From Psococerastis gibbosa (Eukaryota > Arthropoda > Insecta > Psocodea > Psocidae): a stretch of 64,000 nucleotides of DNA. The notes below the pieces were generated by a model. It made no database searches, was not told the origin of the DNA, and worked only from the letters and a program-made list of their open reading frames with translations. The stretch covers positions 12,326,151-12,390,150 of the forward strand of contig OZ020492.1 in NCBI GenBank assembly GCA_963971405.1, in the 5' to 3' direction. Positions within the stretch are counted from its first letter, which is position 1. Each line of letters opens with the position of its first letter. Positions 6,689 to 64,000 of this stretch are shown here, one piece after another. The position numbers and the translations under genes were made by a program.

Positions 6689-6702
6689 GAATTAGTTCAA
6701 AA

Positions 6703-7096
6703 GGCGCGGTTTCCACCGACCGGCTAGGGCTAAATACAAATACGGTGACGTGGTAAAAGACATTCAAGACTTAGGCGGTGTTTCCACCGACCACGCATTG
6801 CAGAATGCAAATGACATTGACGGAAATGTTTGTTTTTCTTTTTATAGAAATCTATTAAAATGTTTGTAATTAACATATCCCATACGCCATTTTTTAATTT
6901 TAGTTAGTTTGTTTGTGATTTTACTCTATGATCATTGATCAATTTTAGCTATGGCATAGAGTAAAACAAATAATTCCGTCAATGCCACTTGTATTCTGCA
7001 ATGCGAGGTCGGTGGAAACCCCGCCTAAGTCTTGAATGTCTGCTACCACGTCTCCGTTCTTGTATTTAGCCCTAGCCGGTCGGTGGAAACCCCGCC
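6703..7096. mobile_element. Harbinger-like MITE
   Basis: A 394-bp element with long inverted arms (about 120-130 bp). Outer ends read GGCG.GGTTTCCACCGACCGG and its inverse; inner arms share GACATTCAAGACTTAGGCGG and GCATTGCAGAATGC. The flanks give AAA on both sides. A second copy at 42905-43288 is flanked by TTA, so a 3-bp duplication as in PIF/Harbinger is likely. No ORF is present. Confidence 0.8.
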
Positions 7097-34809: not shown

Positions 34810-35205
34810 GCTAAGAGGATATGCTACGTAGAAAATGAGCACCCCAAAATTTGTTGTTTTTATTGTTTATTTATTTTTTTATTTAATTAACAAAGCAAAT
34901 CATTAATGATTTGGCTCATGGAAGTTGTAGAAGACTGCTTCATGCAGTATGTAATAGGAAATATTAAATTTTTGGTACCTTAGTTCTTTCATAAATACCT
35001 GAACGGACTAAAATTACGCGTATTCTGGGATTTTTGGAAGAACTACAAAACCGAAAAGTAAAAATACCCGATTATATGATGCACGAAGTAGTCTTCAACA
35101 ACTAAGATCAGCCAAATTTTTAATAACTTGCTGAGTTAATTAAATAAAAAATGAAAAGTATTTAATTTTGGGGTGCCAATTTTCTAGTGACATATCCTCT
35201 TAAGA
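34810..35205. mobile_element. MITE with long nested inverted repeats
   Basis: Outer arms CTAAGAGGATATG...GCACCCCAAAATT and the inverse AATTTTGGGGTGCC...CATATCCTCTTAAG. Inner arms GTTGTAGAAGACTGCTTCATGCA and GATGCACGAAGTAGTCTTCAACAAC. No coding sequence. Partial relatives are at 21400, 24460 and 63320. Confidence 0.8.
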
Positions 35206-42901: not shown

Positions 42902-43291
42902 TTAGGTGCCCATTCCATTGGCCGGCTAGGGCTATTTCCAACAACGGTGACGTGGCAGCAGACATTCAAGACTTAGGTGGCGTTTCCACCGACCTCGCAT
43001 TGCAGAATTGACGGAAATGTTTATTTTCCTCTATGCCATAGTTAAAATTGATCAATGATCATACAGTAAAATCACAAACAAACAAACTAAAATTAAAAAA
43101 TGGCGTCATGGGATATGTTAAGTACAAACATTTTAATAGATTTCTATAAAAAGAAAAATTCTAATTTGCGTCAATGTCATTTGCATTCTGCAATGCGAGA
43201 TCGGTGGAAACGCAACCTAAGTCTTGAATGTCTGCTACCACGTCACTGTTTTTGAAAATAGCCCTAGCCGGTCAATGGAATGGGCGCCTTA
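42902..43291. mobile_element. Harbinger-like MITE with TTA TSD
   Basis: Element 42905-43288 (384 bp), flanked by TTA at 42902-42904 and 43289-43291. Outer ends GGTGCCCATTCCATTGGCCGGC and inverse; inner arms TGACGTGGCAGCAGACATTCAAGACTTAGG and inverse. Its core (ATTGATCAATGATCAT, AAAAAATGGCGTCATGGG) is the reverse complement of that in 6703-7096. The TTA duplication and paired arms suit PIF/Harbinger. Confidence 0.86.
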
Positions 43292-49046: not shown

Positions 49047-50243
49047 ATGTGTCTAAGCGATTTTACTGAGCACATTAACAAAGCATTACATTCAAATAAG
49101 CAAGCATTCGTCTTGTTTGTAGATTTTTCGAAGGCCTTTGACGTCCTTCCCCATAATAACATAATTACAAGCTTAAGTGAAATAGGAGTGAAGGGGATTG
49201 AACTCGAATGGTTTCAAGATTATTTAAGAAATGGAAAAGCGACGGTGCGCCTGAATGAAAAAACTGGAAAACTGAAAGCTTGGGAGTCCGGTGTGGCCCA
49301 GGGTAGTAAAATCGGACCCCTATTGTATATACTTACAACCAACTCAATACCAAAACTTCTAGGAGCAGAATTATTTATGTTTGCTGATGACATTGCCATA
49401 GTAATAGTAAATGACAGCGCAGAAGAAGCATCAAAAGAAATGAACAAAATAATAAGAAAACTACAGAAACTAACACACGATGTGGGTGTCACGATAAACT
49501 GCAATAAAACAAAAATTGTTCACATGCGAAACAGGGGACCGGTTTATAAGAGGAAAAAATTTATTTTCCACACTCATCACTGTCTTCACCAAACAAACTC
49601 AAAAAACTGTGACTGTGTAGAAGAAATAGAGATTAAGGAGGAGCATAAATACCTTGGGTTAATATTGGACAGTAGACTAACATGGCAGAATCAAATTGAT
49701 TGTATATACAAAAAAATGAGGTCCGGGTGTTGTGCCATACAAAAATTAAAATATTGCCTTCCGCTAAAAACCCTAAAAATGATTTACCATGCACTAATAG
49801 AATCGGTATTAAATTATGGAATACAAACTTGGGGGAGAGATAACAACAGCTATTTCACAAAAATACAAAAAATGCAAAATAAAATAGTAAAAAACATGCT
49901 ATCTAATAAATTAAACAAAAAATTTAAAAATATAGACGAAAAATACAGATTTCTAGATATACTACCAATAGGAAAACTGTACAAATATCTTATAATAAAG
50001 AATAACTATTTTATGTATTTAAGCAAAATTGTTGGAAACACACAGAATAAGAGGCAACTGAGAAACGTAGACACATTGAGACAAAATATTCCTATAACAC
50101 ATAATAAGTACGGCAGACGCCTCAATGAAACAGTTTTACCAGAGATATTTAACAAATTGCCACTTAAACTAAAAGAATTGAACAAAATAGGGAAAATAAA
50201 AAAAGAATTAAAAAAATACTTAATTTTAAATACAGACTATTAG
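49047..50243 (+). CDS. non-LTR reverse transcriptase, 5'-truncated
   Basis: A 398-aa open frame. Motif A is FVLFVDFSKAFD (residues 21-32, catalytic D26), motif B GVAQGSKIGPLLY (82-94), motif C MFADDIAI (111-118, catalytic D114-D115), and motif D covers VGVTINCNKTKIVHM (about 146-160). A thumb-like YLGLILDSRLTW follows at 203-214. Full LINE proteins are roughly 900-1000 aa with an endonuclease in front; here the endonuclease and the first reverse transcriptase blocks are missing, with an in-frame stop at 49020-49022, so this is a dead insertion although the frame has no internal stop. The ATG at 49047 is simply the first one left. It lies inside the long-TIR element. A shorter relative is at 31140-31635. 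Confidence 0.88.
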   Translation: MCLSDFTEHINKALHSNKQAFVLFVDFSKAFDVLPHNNIITSLSEIGVKGIELEWFQDYLRNGKATVRLNEKTGKLKAWESGVAQGSKIGPLLYILTTNSIPKLLGAELFMFADDIAIVIVNDSAEEASKEMNKIIRKLQKLTHDVGVTINCNKTKIVHMRNRGPVYKRKKFIFHTHHCLHQTNSKNCDCVEEIEIKEEHKYLGLILDSRLTWQNQIDCIYKKMRSGCCAIQKLKYCLPLKTLKMIYHALIESVLNYGIQTWGRDNNSYFTKIQKMQNKIVKNMLSNKLNKKFKNIDEKYRFLDILPIGKLYKYLIIKNNYFMYLSKIVGNTQNKRQLRNVDTLRQNIPITHNKYGRRLNETVLPEIFNKLPLKLKELNKIGKIKKELKKYLILNTDY

Positions 50244-53776: not shown

Positions 53777-54240
53777 TTGCTCACTGTAGACCCCCTTTTT
53801 AAAGCCGTTAGAGTCCTCACTGTTCATGGCCAGTATGTCTTTCATTGTCTAATGGCCGTAAAGATGAATCCTGGATTGCCAGCTCGGAGTACAGTGCACT
53901 CCTATAATACCCGATCGGCAAAAGGGTTTGATATGCCTAGGTGTCGCCTAAACAAGTCGAGGGATTCTTATCCGATACTTGCACACCGGCTTTACAATAA
54001 GCTACTGTTTTTAGTAAGTCAGTTGGATCCAGCTTGTTTCAGAACATACATTAAGAGCAGACTTATTGAGGCCTCACTATATAATTTGGATGAGTACGAC
54101 CCCAGGAGCTGGACTATCTAAGTACCTCCCCTTCTTTCGTACAAAACCCTCTCGGGTGGCTATTTTTGTTTGACACGGTCGATCCGGCTCTGGCTGGTCA
54201 GGGACTCTAATTTTTGTATTGTATTGTATTGATGATGATT
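53777..54240 (+). pseudogene. LINE pol C-terminus and 3' UTR
   Basis: A 114-aa frame with FKAVRVLTVHGQYVFHCL at the front, HSYNTRSAKGF..PRCRLNKS in the middle, LAHRLYNKL and a C-terminal FRTYIKSRLIEASLYNLDEY. The LTV.G.Y.F..L, H.YNTR and YN.L order is the usual jockey/CR1/R1-type pol end. The stop at 54119-54121 is followed by a CCTCTCGGGTGG 3' UTR and a TTGTATTGTATTGTATTG tail (54215-54231). The reverse transcriptase domain is missing. The frame is intact but starts mid-domain. Confidence 0.82.
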
Positions 54241-56809: not shown

Positions 56810-57297
56810 TAAAATTCACTTGTGTTCGGAGATTTTCTGTTTGTTTTATTTTAATGAGAATATTATGTAGATCTATTATAAATTAAGTTATAATATTATT
56901 AATGATGTCTGCTACCATATTATAATTTTACGTATAATAGATACGTTAAGTATCTACATAATAGTCTCCTTAAAATAAAAGAACCGGTCCGAGTTTACTC
57001 GAACATGCTTTCCAATTTATCAAAATTAGTAGATATAGAAAATGAGTAATTTCATGGTAAATAATTTTCCTATGGTTAAATTTCCGGTATCTCGGAAAAC
57101 AGACATTTCGTAAAAACCACTTTTTTGGGTTCCTGGGACCTTAAAACGTGTAAATCCGTTGAAATCTCGGAATCGAACATTTCGACCGTCACAAAGCTTT
57201 CCTTATACTACGTATAAATTGGAAAGCAACAAACAAAAAATTTCAAAACACAAGTAAATTTTAGTGAAGCAAATTTGCCGGTGGAATAACCGCCGAA
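56776..57297. mobile_element. MITE-B, split by Family A
   Basis: Ends GGCGGCTATTCCACCGGCAAATTTGC and inverse GCAAATTTGCCGGTGGAATAACCGCC at 56779 and 57294, flanked by GAA on both sides (56776-56778 and 57295-57297). Inner words ATTATGTAGAT and TATTATAAATTAAGTTATAATA are shared with the copy at 58874-59051. A short Family A derivative is inserted at 56976-57231. Confidence 0.8.
56976..57231 (-). mobile_element. Family A, internally deleted, nested
   Basis: AGAACCGGTCCGAGTTTACTCG, TTCATGGTAAATAATTTTCC, then a jump to AGACATTTCGTAAAAACCACTTTTTTGGGTTCC and GTATAAATTGGAAAGCAA. About 620 bp of the middle are missing relative to 8290-9165, including both G run and GACA repeat. Confidence 0.88.
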
Positions 57298-57299
57298 GC

Positions 57300-58595
57300 A
57301 GAGGGGGTGAATCAGCTATGCCTATTCAGTGGAGGTGGCTCTGGAGATAGTCGTGTCCTGTGGTTATTAGGGACGCTGCAACAGCGATGCCCCGGCGCAA
57401 GTTACTAGGGATGGTTTTTGCAAGAAGCGGATCCCATTGCTTGCCAGCTGCTCACACTTTCCAGGCATTCGTGGTCACGCTGTGGGTACCTCGACGCTAT
57501 CATAAAAAAACAGAAAGAGTAGTCACGCTTTAAAGCTGATTTAGAATGGCCAAACTCATCGGTAAAATTATACAAATACAGCTGACGCCAGTTGTAAGCC
57601 TCCTGTTCGGGCGCTTTGGGACAAGGATGATTTTTTTGGCAGTGAAATTAAACTGTTATCTGCTTAGGAGTTTGTTCTTTTAAGAAGAGTGGATACAGTG
57701 CCTTCGCCCAGTTACTGTGAATTTCAATTAGCGTTTGAATGCCATCCTTCCCACCAACCGCGGCAATTTTTCTTTTCTTGCAACTCCAGAATTCTCAATT
57801 CTGTTTCAGCTCATATCTGAAAACACAATTAAAATATGCCTTAATAGCCTATCAGAATATATGTATAATATGTATTAGATGCAATTATTTCAGTATAGAA
57901 ATTGGGATGGTAATCGATAAAGTACGCAGTTGTTTACTGGCAAACGGTATTAATTGTTTTAATTTGCTAATTATAGTAGACCGGTTAACAGTGGAAGAGT
58001 ATTAACATTAAGAGTGTACAGGCCGTAGAATGGTGTTTGGACCTAAAGCAATAGGGCCTTTTAAGCATGTTTAATTAATGCCTTTATTACATATCTACCA
58101 TGATAACAAAGGTAAAGATGTGGGGTATAATATTAACGATTTACAATTTTGATATATTTAGTCACTACGGAGAAAAAAATTGTTAAAAAAGGCCAAAAAA
58201 TAAAACAGAACAGGGAATTTGAGATCTTACCGTTGGTAATGTGGCACTACAACATATATTTAAGGCAACTAAATTACAATATCTAAGAAATTAATGAATC
58301 ACATTTTACTAATTTCCATTAATAGCATAATAAATAAATTATTTATATTATCTGTTTACATTTCAAATAAGATGGCTGAGAACAGAAAGCTCATCTGTTG
58401 TGAAACTAAGCACAATCGACGTGAACAATGTTGTAGGTAATTTCCAGAAGATGTCGCACTGATTTATATGTCGCAGTTTTGGTTTTGTTCTGTTACGTTG
58501 TTAGCATTGCGTTCAGAGCTTGTAAACAAAGTAATTTGTTAACTCTCGCATTATTTCATATTTTATGATTTTGTCCATTGTTTTCTTGGCGTACT
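57300..58595. other. 5' flank of transposase/nuclease gene
   Basis: No supported coding sequence. It ends in TTCTGTTACGTTGTTAGCATTGCGTTCAGAGC (58488-58519) before exon 1; there is no clear TATA box near it. The plus frame at 57739-58005 is not supported. I found no inverse of the 3' flank (62508-62610) here, so no TIR for the gene is proposed. Confidence 0.4.
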
Positions 58596-58599
58596 GAGA

Positions 58600-58706
58600 A
58601 TGGGTAAATTTAAAGGCCAGAAGGAATATGAAAAAAATAGACGGACGCGAGCATATCGGAAAGGGTTTAAAGGCGTAGCACCCCATAAAAAAAAGGAAAT
58701 GGAACG
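58600..58706 (+). CDS. exon 1 of Mutator/YqaJ fusion gene
   Basis: ATG at 58600 (AGAATGG context with A at -3 and G at +4) encodes 35 codons plus two bases, MGKFKGQKEYEKNRRTRAYR followed by KGFKGVAPHKKKEME. It is Lys/Arg-rich, as expected of a nuclear localisation or DNA-binding N-terminus. The donor is ACG|GTTAGT at 58706/58707. Splicing to the acceptor at 59953/59954 completes an Arg codon (CG plus G) and enters the long downstream frame with no stop. Without splicing, the frame reads on to a stop at 58813-58815. The phase match is seen directly; use of this exon is inferred. Confidence 0.72.
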
Positions 58707-59953
58707 GTTAGTACATGTTGTTATAAGAAATGTAGTACGTATCTGTAATTGCTATTTATGTCTAGATAGATCGACAGCCAATTTAAAGAGGATAGTGATC
58801 TTTCGTTCTAAGTGAGATTTGTATGTGGGGACCTCATTTTTATTGTAACCAGTCAGGAGCAACCATGGGCATAGGCGGCTATTGCATTTGTCAATATTCC
58901 CACATTTGTGCATCAATAATTGATGCGATTTTTCTTTGAATGAGACTATTATGTAGATACTTAACTTATCTATTATAAATTAAGTTATAATATGGTAGAG
59001 ACTTATTATTGATGCATAAATGAGGGAATATCGGCAAGTGGAATAGCCGCCATATCATTTATAAACATACATGTATCAATCTTGGGAGACTTTGTGCCTT
59101 GGTTACCTGGTCACAAGCTTTGTTTCGGGGAAAAACCTACTTCCAGACTGATTCTGATGAATTAAGTGTTTTAAAAATTCATTCAATTTTTTTATCCAGA
59201 GAGAAAGAAGTGATTGTTACAGAGTTACAAATTTCGAATTGTTTTCTCTGAAATAGGGCTCTATATTAGACAGGTATTGTCATCCGCCACATTATATCCA
59301 TTATAAGTCTGGTGTATAAGCCAAGCATTGGGTGTTTACCTATTTATTTTTAGAAATTTATCGTTGTTTATTTATTATTATTTAAAAAAACGTGCTACCA
59401 ATTAGGGAAGTGTTTAATAAAAAAATACTAAAACGTGTATTAGTTTTTTCAATATTTCTCAACCTCTTACTTTTCTTACAATACTTACCATATAGGAATT
59501 AGGATACAACATGGCGGATGACAATACCCGGGTATATAGTGCCTTACTCTTAAATTAGCATTTGCATTTGAGCAGTAAATATAGTGAAATTGAAGCAAGT
59601 AGACTAAGTGTTGTTCGTCACTACATTTACGAGTCCTATTATTATATTACGATCGGGCGTACCCCAGGCAATGCAAAGTGGAAATATCTAGCGGCTAATC
59701 CTTCCACCACCGAAAAGAGACCAACGACTTAAACAGTTCAACGACCTTTGGGTCAGCACCGACCATTGCGTCTGATTGGCAGAACACTGGGCCCAGAAAC
59801 TGAGTCTCTACCTCGGAGACGAAAAAATAACTACAATATATACAATGTGTATCCCCAATTGTGATTGCATGAACAGTAGAGTATAATCAAACCATGGTGT
59901 AAGCTTATACAATATTCACTGCTGTTATATTTATGTCTAATACTTTTTTGTAG
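58707..59953 (+). other. predicted intron, 1.25 kb
   Basis: GTTAGT donor, TTTTTTGTAG acceptor preceded by TGTCTAATACTTTTTTG. It contains MITE-B (58874-59051) and otherwise unassigned AT-rich sequence. Confidence 0.65.
58871..59054. mobile_element. MITE-B, intronic copy
   Basis: 178 bp with GGCGGCTATTGCATTTGTC.ATATTCCC ends and inverse GGGAATATCGGCAAGTGGAATAGCCGCC, flanked by ATA on each side (58871-58873 and 59052-59054). Inner arms TGTGCATCAATAAT and TTATTGATGCATAAATG. Confidence 0.84.
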
Positions 59954-62507
59954 GGTTGATAATTATCTTAAAAGAGAAGGTGTTATTTTAACATCCACGC
60001 CAGACGACGTATCTGACAGCCTTAATCTTGCTGGCCCAATTGCTATGGAGGAAGAGGGCCCAGCTGATGAGACAGTCATTAGCAATCAATCCATTGGGGC
60101 CGATGAGCCCAGCCCATTTCTTATGGAGGAAGAGGACCCAGTTAATGAGACTGTTGGCAATCAGTCCATCGGGGCCGATGAGCCCAACACAATTTTGCCA
60201 ACTGGTACTTTACCAGGCAACAGGATTGTTAACTTGGCTCACCTCTTCACCCAATTAAAAAATGACGTGCACAAACCATTCATGTGCACTATTGCTGACA
60301 TGGACTTCATAAGGGAGGTGCCCATAAAAAAGCACAGCATAATGACGGTGCAGTTGCTATTTCAATGCCGCATGTGCAACTCCACTAGAAAATACGCCCT
60401 TCAGCCTAACGATGAAAACATCGAAGGTAATTTGGTGAACGGCGTGATATCTGGTGGTGTGGGCTTTGCAGCCGCTGAACCAATTTTTGCTGCGTTGAAC
60501 ATCCCTTTCATGAGTGAGAGAAAATTTATGAAAGAGGGACTGAAAGTGTCCGAGCGAATTGGAGCTAGCCTTTCTCAGTCCATGGCTGCAGCTGCGGCTG
60601 AAGAAAAACAGTTAGCTTTAGAAGCTGGAGACGTCTTGCCAGATGGCACTCCTTTTATTACAGTTGTGGCTGATGGAATGTGGGCTAAGAGGTCATATAA
60701 GACGAAATATAATTCGTTGTCGGGGATGGCGTCAATTATTGGGTACAGGACAAGGAAAGTTGTTTTTGTGGGCACGCGTAATAAGTTCTGCTCCTTGTGT
60801 TGTAGAGAAAAAAAAACGGGGAAGAAGGCGCCCCACAAATGCTTTAGGAACTGGAAACGTTCCTCAACTGCCATGGAAGCTGATATAATTGTTGAGGGAT
60901 TTCGGCGGAGCATACAGACGCAAGGCATTGCTTACACGAGGCTCATTGGTGATGGGGATTCAAGTGTTATGAAGCGTCTATTAGGGGCACAGCCGTACGG
61001 ATTTACCGTTGCAATAAAAAAAGTGGAATGCCGCAACCATTTACTCAGAAATATGGACGGCCACTTGCGTGGGTTTTTGAAGGCGACTAAGTTCCCCATA
61101 GCAGAGCGAAAAGCCTTAGCATCCAACGTTTTCCGCTTTCGCCAGGCTGTGAGAGGCGCGATTAAGCATTGGAAAAATGCAGCTGGCCTTTCATCAATTC
61201 GTTGTGAGGGATTGCACAAGGACATTTTAAATGCCCCTAAACACATACTTGGTCTTCATCATGATTGCCTGGAGTACTATTGCAAAGAGAAAGGCGTAAA
61301 TGAGTCCAGCTTGTACAATGTGATGACAAAATCTGGCCTAGCTGATGATTTGATAAGATTGATGACCAGGGTCGCACACCATGCTGATTCACTCTTGCTT
61401 GATGTTGACAGCAATCTATGCGAACAACTCAATAGCCTAGCAAATAAATTAATTGGTGGCAAGAGAATTTTTTATGGTGCTCGCGGAAGTTACAACATGA
61501 GAATGGAAGCCGCATGTCTTCAATTTAACGAGGGTGCCTTTTTAGCAGATGTCGCACGGCGTATTTGTAACATTCGAACCCCAGGGAGTAGAACGAAGGG
61601 ATACGTTTCACGGGCAAAATTAAGAACGGAACATAACAGGCGACGGCGAGAACTGTTTAAAAGAAGCAAACCGACTCAGTGGAAAGAAGAAGCAGGTCCA
61701 GATGAAGATTACGGGGACGTTGAGGATATTCCAGATATCCCAGAATCGCAGTTGCGTCAGAGTAAAGAGCGTTTCCTAGAAGAGTTGAGTTCTGTTGATC
61801 CGGAAGAATTACAGTTGAGGACAATGGGTCAAGACCTTTCGGAAGATTGGATGGTGGAAAGGGTGAAACGCCTCACTGCTTCAAATTTTGGTAAAGTGAT
61901 GTGCTTAAGGCCAACGACCTCAACCCGAAACACTGTGAAGTCGATCCTGTACAGTGATATTTCACGGACTCAAGCCGTAAAGTTTGCGAAAACGAACGAG
62001 GATTTGGCCCGGGAAATATTTTGCTGCAAAAACGGCAAGAAAGTGAAAAAATGTGGTCTCTTTGTTGATCCCACGTATCCCTTTCTCGCTGCTTCGCCCG
62101 ACGGATTAGTTTGTGGAGAGGATGCTCTACTGGAGATAAAATGTTTGTGGGCAGCCACAAAAGCTGAGACGACGTCGCTGGCAGATGCTGTCAGGCAGAA
62201 GAAGACTGCAATGTTGAAACTTGGCGAAAAAGGTGTCGTCCAGCTTAAACCAAAAAGTTACTGGCACTACCAGATACAGGGGCAGCTGAACATTTTGAAG
62301 GTGAATAAGTGCTACCTTTTCATATACACGCCTCATTGGCAAGAGGTCATTGAAGTTACCAGGGACCAGAGTCTTTGGCGTTCAGTCATGGTGCCAAAAC
62401 TCGAGAGGTTTTACAAGGAAGCCTTATTATGCGAAATTGTTTCACCACGGTACACCCTTGCAGAGCGGACTAACGACATCAGACAGGCCTTTCTAAGTGT
62501 TTTTTAG
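59954..62507 (+). CDS. Mutator-like transposase fused to YqaJ exonuclease
   Basis: Exon 2 of an 886-aa model; the first in-frame ATG is at 60045, so an unspliced reading gives 820 aa. Residue numbers are for the 886-aa model. Residues 67-115 hold a tandem duplication around MEEE...SNQSIGADEP. A CRMC and a CSLCCREK...HKC cluster suggest zinc binding. A Mutator-type transposase core follows: VVADGMW (D276), LIGDGDSS (D369, D371), the family word VECRNHLLRN, and SNLCEQLNSL (E526) as the likely third acidic residue. A hinge rich in Arg, Glu and Asp follows. The C-terminal third has RLTASNFGKV, FLAASPDGLV (D752), LLEIKC (E763, K765) and YWHYQIQGQLN, the YqaJ-like PD-(D/E)XK exonuclease pattern. 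The frame is open to TAG at 62505. Expected roles are DNA strand transfer and end resection; activity is inferred. Confidence 0.9.
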
Positions 62508-62612
62508 AATTAGTGCTCGCCCATTCTCAGTCCTTCCCTCTCTTTGCCATAACGGCGGTCTTTTAGAATTAACAGCCCGTAGGAAATTGGCAGCCCGATA
62601 TTTAGTACCTTT
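62508..62612. other. 3' flank of fusion gene
   Basis: About 105 bp with no AATAAA and no recognisable terminator, up to the next Family A copy. AGAATTA occurs at 62506-62512 and 62564-62570. Confidence 0.4.
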
Positions 62613-63260
62613 TATTGCTTTCCAATTTATACGTAGCCTAGTATAAGGAAAGCTTTGTGATGGTCGAAATTTTCGATTTCGAGATTTCAACGGATTTACA
62701 CGTTTTGAGGTCTCAGGAACCAAAAAAAATCTTTTTACGAAATGACTGTCTGTAGCTCTGTCTGTCTGTCTGTTCATCGATTTCCGGGCAAACTACTCGG
62801 CCGATTTTGATGATATTTGGTATGTAGGTTTACAAAAATCATACCTCGAGACAATTTTTTTTAAATGGGGCTTACTCAATTTGGGGGGGGGGGGTTATTT
62901 TCAAAAATCTCCAAAAAAACGTCTAACAATTTATTTCTCAAATACGGCTCCAACGATTTCTTCTAAATTCACATACAGTATATTGCAGTCGCCATTAATG
63001 TTTACAATATGGGGGGGGGGGGGGGGTCGCTTGCCCCTTGATAGTTTCTGTCTGGGGGTAAAAAAATAAAAATAACTAAATTTGAATGAAAAATGACTAA
63101 AAAATAATTTCTCTGCGAAACCTTTCTATCGATGATGTCTACCTTCAGGCATGAATTATGTGTTTAATTGAGTAACGAAACCGAGCAGGTTGCTTTCGCA
63201 AAAATCTATTTGGTTTTGTGGAAAAAAGGTTTTTTATTTTTAAATGATAGAAAATTCACG
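62613..63260 (+). mobile_element. Family A copy, about three quarters
   Basis: TTGCTTTCCAATTTATACGTAGCCTAGTATAAGG, CAACGGATTTACACGTTTTGAGG, TCTG repeat (62745-62773), a G12 run (62882-62893), a G18 run (63010-63026), GGTCGCTTGCCCCTTGATAG, CCTTTCTATCGATGATG, TTGAGTAACGAAACCGAGCAGGTTGC. It stops before the ACCGGTTC end. It lies about 105 bp after the fusion gene. Confidence 0.85.
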
Positions 63261-63319
63261 GTGAAACGCATTGCGTATTATAAATTACCGAGAATAAATT
63301 ATTATCGTGTTTATGAAAA

Positions 63320-63445
63320 AACTAGAACTTCAAAAATTAAAAATACTTTATTATACGATGCATGAAGTAGTCTTCTAGAACTTAAGTGGGCCAAATCTTT
63401 ATGAACTTGCTTAGTTAATTAAATAATAAATAAAATGTTAAATTT
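63320..63445. mobile_element. half copy of 34810-type MITE
   Basis: GATGCATGAAGTAGTCTTCTAGAAC, GGGCCAAATCTTTATGAACTTGCTTAGTTAATTAAATAATAAATAAAAT match the right half of 34810-35205. Confidence 0.68.
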
Positions 63446-63544
63446 AATTTCCAATTTCCCTAAGGGCTGTACACTGTTAATGCCTGCTTTGAGCTCTGCT
63501 ATTTCCCGGGATTGATGAAAATTCCCAAATTTTTGAGGGGGGGG

Positions 63545-63775
63545 GCTATAATCCTTAAAAGAGTCCTCAAGGTTCTGGATGAAAAGGATATCCTGCGTCC
63601 AGAACCTTTTGGTATCCGGAAAGGCTGTAGCACACAACAGCAGATTATTAGACTCACTGAGTAGATTAAAAAACAATGGGGCCACAATGCGCCAATTCTT
63701 TGAGGCTATACTCCTTAAAAGAGTCCTAAGGGTTCTGGATGAAAAGGATATCCCTCACAGGGCTTTCATTTGATA
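63545..63775 (+). pseudogene. jockey-like RT debris, duplicated segment
   Basis: A readable frame gives ILRPEPFGIRKGCSTQQQIIRLTE, the (Q/P)FGFR.G.ST..Q..R block that starts many jockey-type reverse transcriptase domains. The preceding ILKRVLKVLDEKDI-like segment recurs, so CTTAAAAGAGTCCT.A.GGTTCTGGATG occurs at about 63555 and 63715. Frames break between the pieces. Confidence 0.68.
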
Positions 63776-64000
63776 TGCAATACGTTATACCTTTGCATTT
63801 GAAAATTCCGAGATACCACCTATGACCCCCTGAAACTCCCCTTTCGGACTCCCCGAAAAAAACATTTGATTGCACCATAAGGTAGTTCAATCTTGACTTT
63901 GTTATCGTAGATTTTTACCGCATTTCAAAATTCCTCGTAATAACCGAGATATAGGGGGTGTCCGGGTGGTCTGGAACACCCTGTATATATTACGAACAAA
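63776..64000. other. unassigned, ends in CACCCTGTATA motif
   Basis: No gene. GAGATATAGGGGGTGTCCGGGTGGTCTGGAACACCCTGTATATAT near the end is a word frequently seen in arthropod retroelement borders (from memory), probably a repeat cut off by the window edge. Confidence 0.35.

Follow-up and report, generated by a model that had tools for sequence, protein, structure and literature searches.

A gene of Psococerastis gibbosa that joins a DDE transposase core to a YqaJ-type exonuclease very probably encodes the transposase-nuclease of an autonomous Kolobok-superfamily DNA transposon and fits the KolobokE lineage. It occupies positions 58,600 to 62,507 of the window, by which we mean the whole 64,000-nucleotide stretch of DNA that was analysed and to which all positions refer. 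The fit to KolobokE, which was judged by published feature definitions (PMC9587614), follows from TTAA duplications, AG...CT termini, a CxxH motif, a CCHC finger after the first catalytic Asp, and a PD-(D/E)XK nuclease that follows the transposase. The find is thus largely an ordinary one, a young member of an already named transposase-exonuclease lineage.

Gene model, domains and catalytic residues

The gene comprises the following features:

58600..58706, + strand: predicted exon 1, an ATG frame of 36 codons including the split one, Lys/Arg-rich
58707..59953, + strand: predicted GT...AG intron, with its splice dinucleotides in 20/20 copies and a length that varies
59954..62507, + strand: exon 2, a Kolobok-type DDE transposase (PF20700) with a C-terminal YqaJ/lambda-type exonuclease
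60045-62507, + strand: open frame, 820 aa from the first ATG and 850 aa from the acceptor, stop-free
60672..60674, + strand: first catalytic Asp, model D276 (sequence, copies and family 2)
60789..60842, + strand: CCHC finger after the first Asp, C315, C318, H330 and C332 (20 copies and family 2)
61422..61424, + strand: catalytic Glu, model E526 (sequence, copies and family 2)
61845..62288, + strand: YqaJ domain by Pfam (aa 601-748 of the 820-aa frame)

The gene had been described as free of stops, and its frame is indeed open throughout. Both parts of the proposed fusion score above their Pfam cut-offs within this single frame: PF20700, named 'Mutator', covers residues 58-413 of the 820 (263.8 bits, cut-off 26.5; E 2.8e-78), and PF09588, YqaJ, covers residues 601-748 (48.1 bits, cut-off 22; E 2e-12), which places the DDE core and the YqaJ exonuclease on one polypeptide, as the original prediction had it. 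The open frame also matches PF01771, Viral_alk_exo (21.9 bits, cut-off 20; E 8e-5). The sole PDB sequence match at E up to 1 is 3syy, named 'Exonuclease' (E 3.9e-7), and it lies over the YqaJ part; at the same threshold the transposase part has no PDB sequence match, and the open frame has no THAP or HTH match in Pfam.

Catalytic residues were compared among 20 copies of the element, which were picked for length and include the window copy, and with a second family of the same genome (family 2), whose protein is 35% identical to that of the window's exon 2. The proposed D...D...E landmarks (D276, D369/D371, E526) and the C-terminal PD-(D/E)XK set (D752, E763, K765) are present as named and invariant in family 2, and all 15 residues checked, among them the triad, the CxxH, the CCHC finger and the nuclease residues, are identical in 20/20 copies. 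The CxxH itself, C395-x2-H398, lies between the second D and the E in every copy and in family 2, and a cluster formed by H466, H471, C474 and C479 is invariant in the two families by residue identity.

The predicted splice joins exon 1 to exon 2 in phase. All 20 copies have an unchanged donor and keep the acceptor AG; one of them (L019) shows a difference 12 bases upstream of this AG. The place and phase of the acceptor recur in a third family (family 3, described below). This part of the proposed Lys/Arg-rich exon stood, but no homologue of exon 1 itself was found in family 2 (best E 3.2) or in family 3 (best E 0.82 when about 2 kb of upstream sequence was searched, 1.9 with about 6 kb), which leaves the splice signals as the sole basis on which exon 1 is predicted.

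Related families and the role of the exonuclease

A search of the genome with PF20700 gave 107 matches, and none was found in any of 14 control genomes. An open frame of 755 or 739 aa occurs at 15 places that belong to family 2, and at 13 of these the score is equal. The family is about 11.85 kb long, carries the same domains as the window element, is flanked by TTAA on either side and has GG...CC termini. Two of its copies, with 20-bp TIRs, have 11.86 kb in common at 99.93%; besides the 755-aa frame, no further stop-to-stop frame of at least 110 aa was found. This KolobokE-like family has an example at about 2277135-2288982 of contig C1 (L051, L035 and L053). Family 3 consists of two loci (L055 and L056) that match in several separate pieces, some of which contain stops, with 52-64% identity in matched stretches of at least 46 residues, one intron-spanning stretch being left out. 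Its 5' parts may be lost, because the two copies have only about 240 bases in common upstream of the acceptor. Pattern searches for relatives gave 34 matches in viral contigs and 137 in prokaryote contigs, none of which was confirmed.

Between the window element and family 2, the YqaJ region is identical at 80/196 positions (40.8%) and the transposase region at 123/348 (35.3%). The exonuclease motif residues are kept and, in this sequence comparison, the domain is conserved no less than the transposase, unlike what would be expected of a decaying passenger. These figures bear on the nearest alternative, a KolobokE element whose exonuclease is a passenger with no role in transposition, which we regard as unlikely. 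In its favor, our search of the literature on Kolobok or KolobokE with YqaJ or exonuclease found no study of the function of the KolobokE nuclease, and the published description of ISL2EU elements calls the function of their additional open reading frames, the YqaJ one included, unknown (PMC4482050). The conservation of the YqaJ region and the invariance of its motif residues argue against it, and so does the presence of YqaJ in ISL2EU, a separate group (PMC4482050).

The coupling of strand transfer to end resection that the original prediction raised may exist, and the following sequence of events may be proposed. The DDE core (D276, D369 or D371, E526) would cut the element out at its TIRs, by the chemistry expected of the superfamily, and the excised element would be inserted at TTAA, giving the 4-bp duplication that is observed. 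The YqaJ/lambda-type exonuclease (D752, E763, K765) would likely resect or trim the DNA ends made in excision, which could help repair of the donor site and thereby lead to copy gain. A more specific version, which we put forward tentatively, is that the exonuclease might be a built-in repair-steering module, the resected ends being directed to homology-directed repair from the sister copy, by which a cut-and-paste element would gain copies, a solution that KolobokE and ISL2EU, members of two separate superfamilies, would have reached independently. With its young family, defined ends, known target and open frames, the element offers material with which the KolobokE exonuclease could be tested at the bench.

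Ends, target sites and copies

The limits of the element were obtained by comparing near-identical copies with different flanks:

58008..64000 in the window, + strand: transposon, about 6.5 kb with its flanking TTAA (limits common to near-identical copies with different flanks)
58008..58028, + strand: left end, TTAA target duplication and TIR AGAGTGTACAGGCCGTAG (end comparison)
64501-64521, 501-521 bases past the window end: right end, reverse complement AGAGTGAACAGCCCGTAG (end comparison)
53901..54205, no strand assigned: paralogue without insertion ('empty site') of the repeat into which copies L012 and L022 went, with one TTAA (flank-pair comparison)

The ends of the element are TTAAGAGTGTACAGGCCGTAG and, for the other end reverse-complemented, TTAAGAGTGAACAGCCCGTAG, with AG...CT termini. 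Compared with the window copy, 17/19 other copies have their left limit at 58001-58009; of the exceptions, L015 starts at 58536, and the piece retrieved for L020 has its start inside the element. The right limit, 64521 in window numbering (locus L029), is that of one copy traced to its far side and is 521 bases beyond the window. The original prediction had found no TIRs; they exist at both ends, the right one outside the window. TTAA flanks both outer ends in 14/20 copies, and the flanks differ except that those of L012 and L022 are the same; in each of the other six copies, at least one end is truncated or altered or lies outside the fetched piece.

The window also contains a long inverted repeat pair at 57099-57233 and 62611-62749, pieces of which are 83-96% complementary. 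A portion of this pair is also present at other places in the window and next to L026, and we rejected the pair as the TIRs of the element, whose true ends are those given above. A reverse transcriptase frame of 398 aa (PF00078, E 4.2e-21) is found at 49047-50243.

Sixteen flank pairs were joined with a single TTAA. Three (L011, L012 and L022) matched an uninterrupted junction, and no empty site was found for the other 13 in the sequence compared. The joined flanks of L012 and L022 match 53901-54205 with 97.4% and 95.7% identity, respectively, and because they meet at one TTAA in this empty paralogue, the duplication is of 4 bp, TTAA. The flanks of L011 match 43133-43291 and 6701-6858, where the paralogue has TCAA. 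L012 (contig C1) and L022 (contig C20) have none of their derived coding variants (six and seven) in common and therefore look like independent insertions, which suggests that the same TTAA was hit in two copies of one host repeat.

The empty sites also bear on the possibility, highly improbable in our view, that the gene belongs to a true Mutator/MULE element to which a YqaJ nuclease is attached. Mutator (MuDR) elements duplicate 8-11 bp of their target, and the 4 bp of the empty-site alignment contradict such an assignment. The Pfam name of the domain does favor it, and the C/DxxH motif is common to MuDR, hAT, P, Kolobok and Dada as these are described in PMC9587614. Kolobok lineages have, however, been described with a CCHC finger past the first D and with a downstream nuclease. 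The 'Mutator-like' label of the original prediction is only the name of the Pfam family; the element duplicates its target as published for Kolobok and has the termini and motifs of that superfamily.

A six-frame search of the 409-Mb genome gave at least 56 matches on many contigs, some being pieces of one copy. Since scoring covered 55 of the 350 first-look candidates, this count is a lower bound. At least 16 matches span the entire 820-aa query, and among the 16 there are 13 that are stop-free. Among the 20 copies, 97 coding variants are private and 4 shared, versus 123 and 17 for non-coding ones (Fisher P 0.036), and private variants have similar densities in the two compartments (1.8 and 2.0 per kb, respectively). 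The pattern is star-like and indicates a recent burst, by which the family spread; the few shared coding variants are a weak sign of constraint on the source lineage. Within the 820-codon frame, private changes comprise 59 replacements, 3 stops and 26 silent changes; replacements and stops thus make up 62/88, a rate ratio of 0.67 (binomial P 0.056, mutation bias uncorrected). The comparison of replacement and silent changes among copies gave a shortage of replacements, but a weak one, not clearly unlike neutral decay, so that once inserted the copies mostly decay near-neutrally. At model residue 714, where the 19 other copies have Gly, the window copy carries a private Gly-to-Ala change, and its YqaJ score in the genome search is 52.0 bits versus 58.6 at 22 other places of the family, so that its open frame is no proof of full activity.

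The original prediction had also considered that the host might have captured the pair of domains. The intact frame and catalytic residues of the window copy would agree with this, but a domesticated gene is expected to be immobile and without TIRs, and the genome examined shows the opposite pattern: many near-identical, young, TIR-bounded copies spread over many contigs, TTAA at both ends of most of those compared, empty target sites and, in the window copy, a private change in the exonuclease domain. Host capture is thus contradicted and highly improbable; a possible claim of a captured gene is removed and the class of the element corrected. Chance resemblance we reject.

The ends of the Kolobok element are shared by short elements. 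With up to one mismatch, its TIR pattern matches the genome 1904 times in forward and 1853 times in reverse orientation (3757 in total), versus 0 and 0 for the reversed pattern used as a control, and many of these matches belong to palindromic MITEs of about 390 bp. The first 100 listed places include 23 facing pairs less than 1 kb apart, of which 19 measure 300-399 bp, and the three pairs that we fetched are TTAA-flanked near-palindromes (MITEs) of 391-397 bp, which differ from one another by 8-13% in the better orientation and match the ends of the element at 20/21 positions. Two related sequences lie in the window:

62562..63480 (pieces 62572-62616 and 63294-63480), no strand assigned: degraded, interrupted related MITE inside the 3' part of the element (MITE comparison)
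34870..35186, no strand assigned: diverged MITE-like sequence, kin of the element's MITE family (MITE comparison)

Judging from the ends in common, the window element may, and probably does, mobilise in trans this family of MITEs of about 390 bp, which has thousands of ends. The same genome adds to the element both a second family and thousands of MITE ends with the same TIRs.

Comparison with known systems

YqaJ genes have been classed in various ways in invertebrate genome papers, being filtered out as TE-related in one account (PMC13289751), listed among transposon genes as recombinases in another (PMC10225492) and listed as endogenous viral elements in a third (PMC7826175). The YqaJ domain studied here is plainly part of a transposon. 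A YqaJ search of the genome gave at least 150 matches (150 of 219 candidates scored); of the 14 control genomes, two were matched as well, those of E. coli and B. subtilis. In P. gibbosa many of the matches lie in short frames of 172 to 260 aa with an identical score and no overlap with a listed PF20700 match (for example, C1:13647390-13647767 and C1:22485406-22485876); they are perhaps second open reading frames of ISL2EU-like elements.

Four known groups invite comparison. Mutator/MULE elements share the Pfam family name and the C/DxxH but differ in target duplication and accessory features. ISL2EU elements are likewise DNA transposons with a YqaJ exonuclease domain, but in their published description YqaJ is a second open reading frame beside a transposase with DDE, HTH and THAP (PMC4482050), whereas the window element has one fused frame with a PF20700 core and no THAP or HTH match, and we did not assign it to this group. 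The Xenopus Kolobok elements (XKol), 6.8 to 13.9 kb long, likewise have TTAA duplications, AG termini and MITE partners (T2-MITE); the word exonuclease is absent from the main text of their description (PMC6004289), whereas the window element has an exonuclease domain.

The closest likeness is with KolobokE. The definitions given by Kojima and Bao (PMC9587614) for Kolobok are a TTAA duplication, 5'-RR...YY-3' termini and C/DxxH between the second D and the E, with a zinc finger between C/DxxH and the last E in almost all lineages; they give a second zinc finger, of CCHC type and located past the first D, for KolobokE and also for KolobokP, KolobokD and Kolobok5, and for KolobokE a lambda-exonuclease-like PD-(D/E)XK nuclease that comes after the transposase. 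The window element shows the 4-bp TTAA duplication (14/20 copies and a single-TTAA empty site), purine-pyrimidine termini (AG...CT here, GG...CC in family 2), C/DxxH as C395-x2-H398 and the CCHC finger of C315, C318, H330 and C332. The expectation that related fusions already exist was therefore right, as a lineage with a downstream lambda-type exonuclease is published (PMC9587614); by that description no difference from the window element is established, and the two have the same TTAA, RR...YY termini, DDE with C/DxxH, CCHC finger and downstream nuclease.
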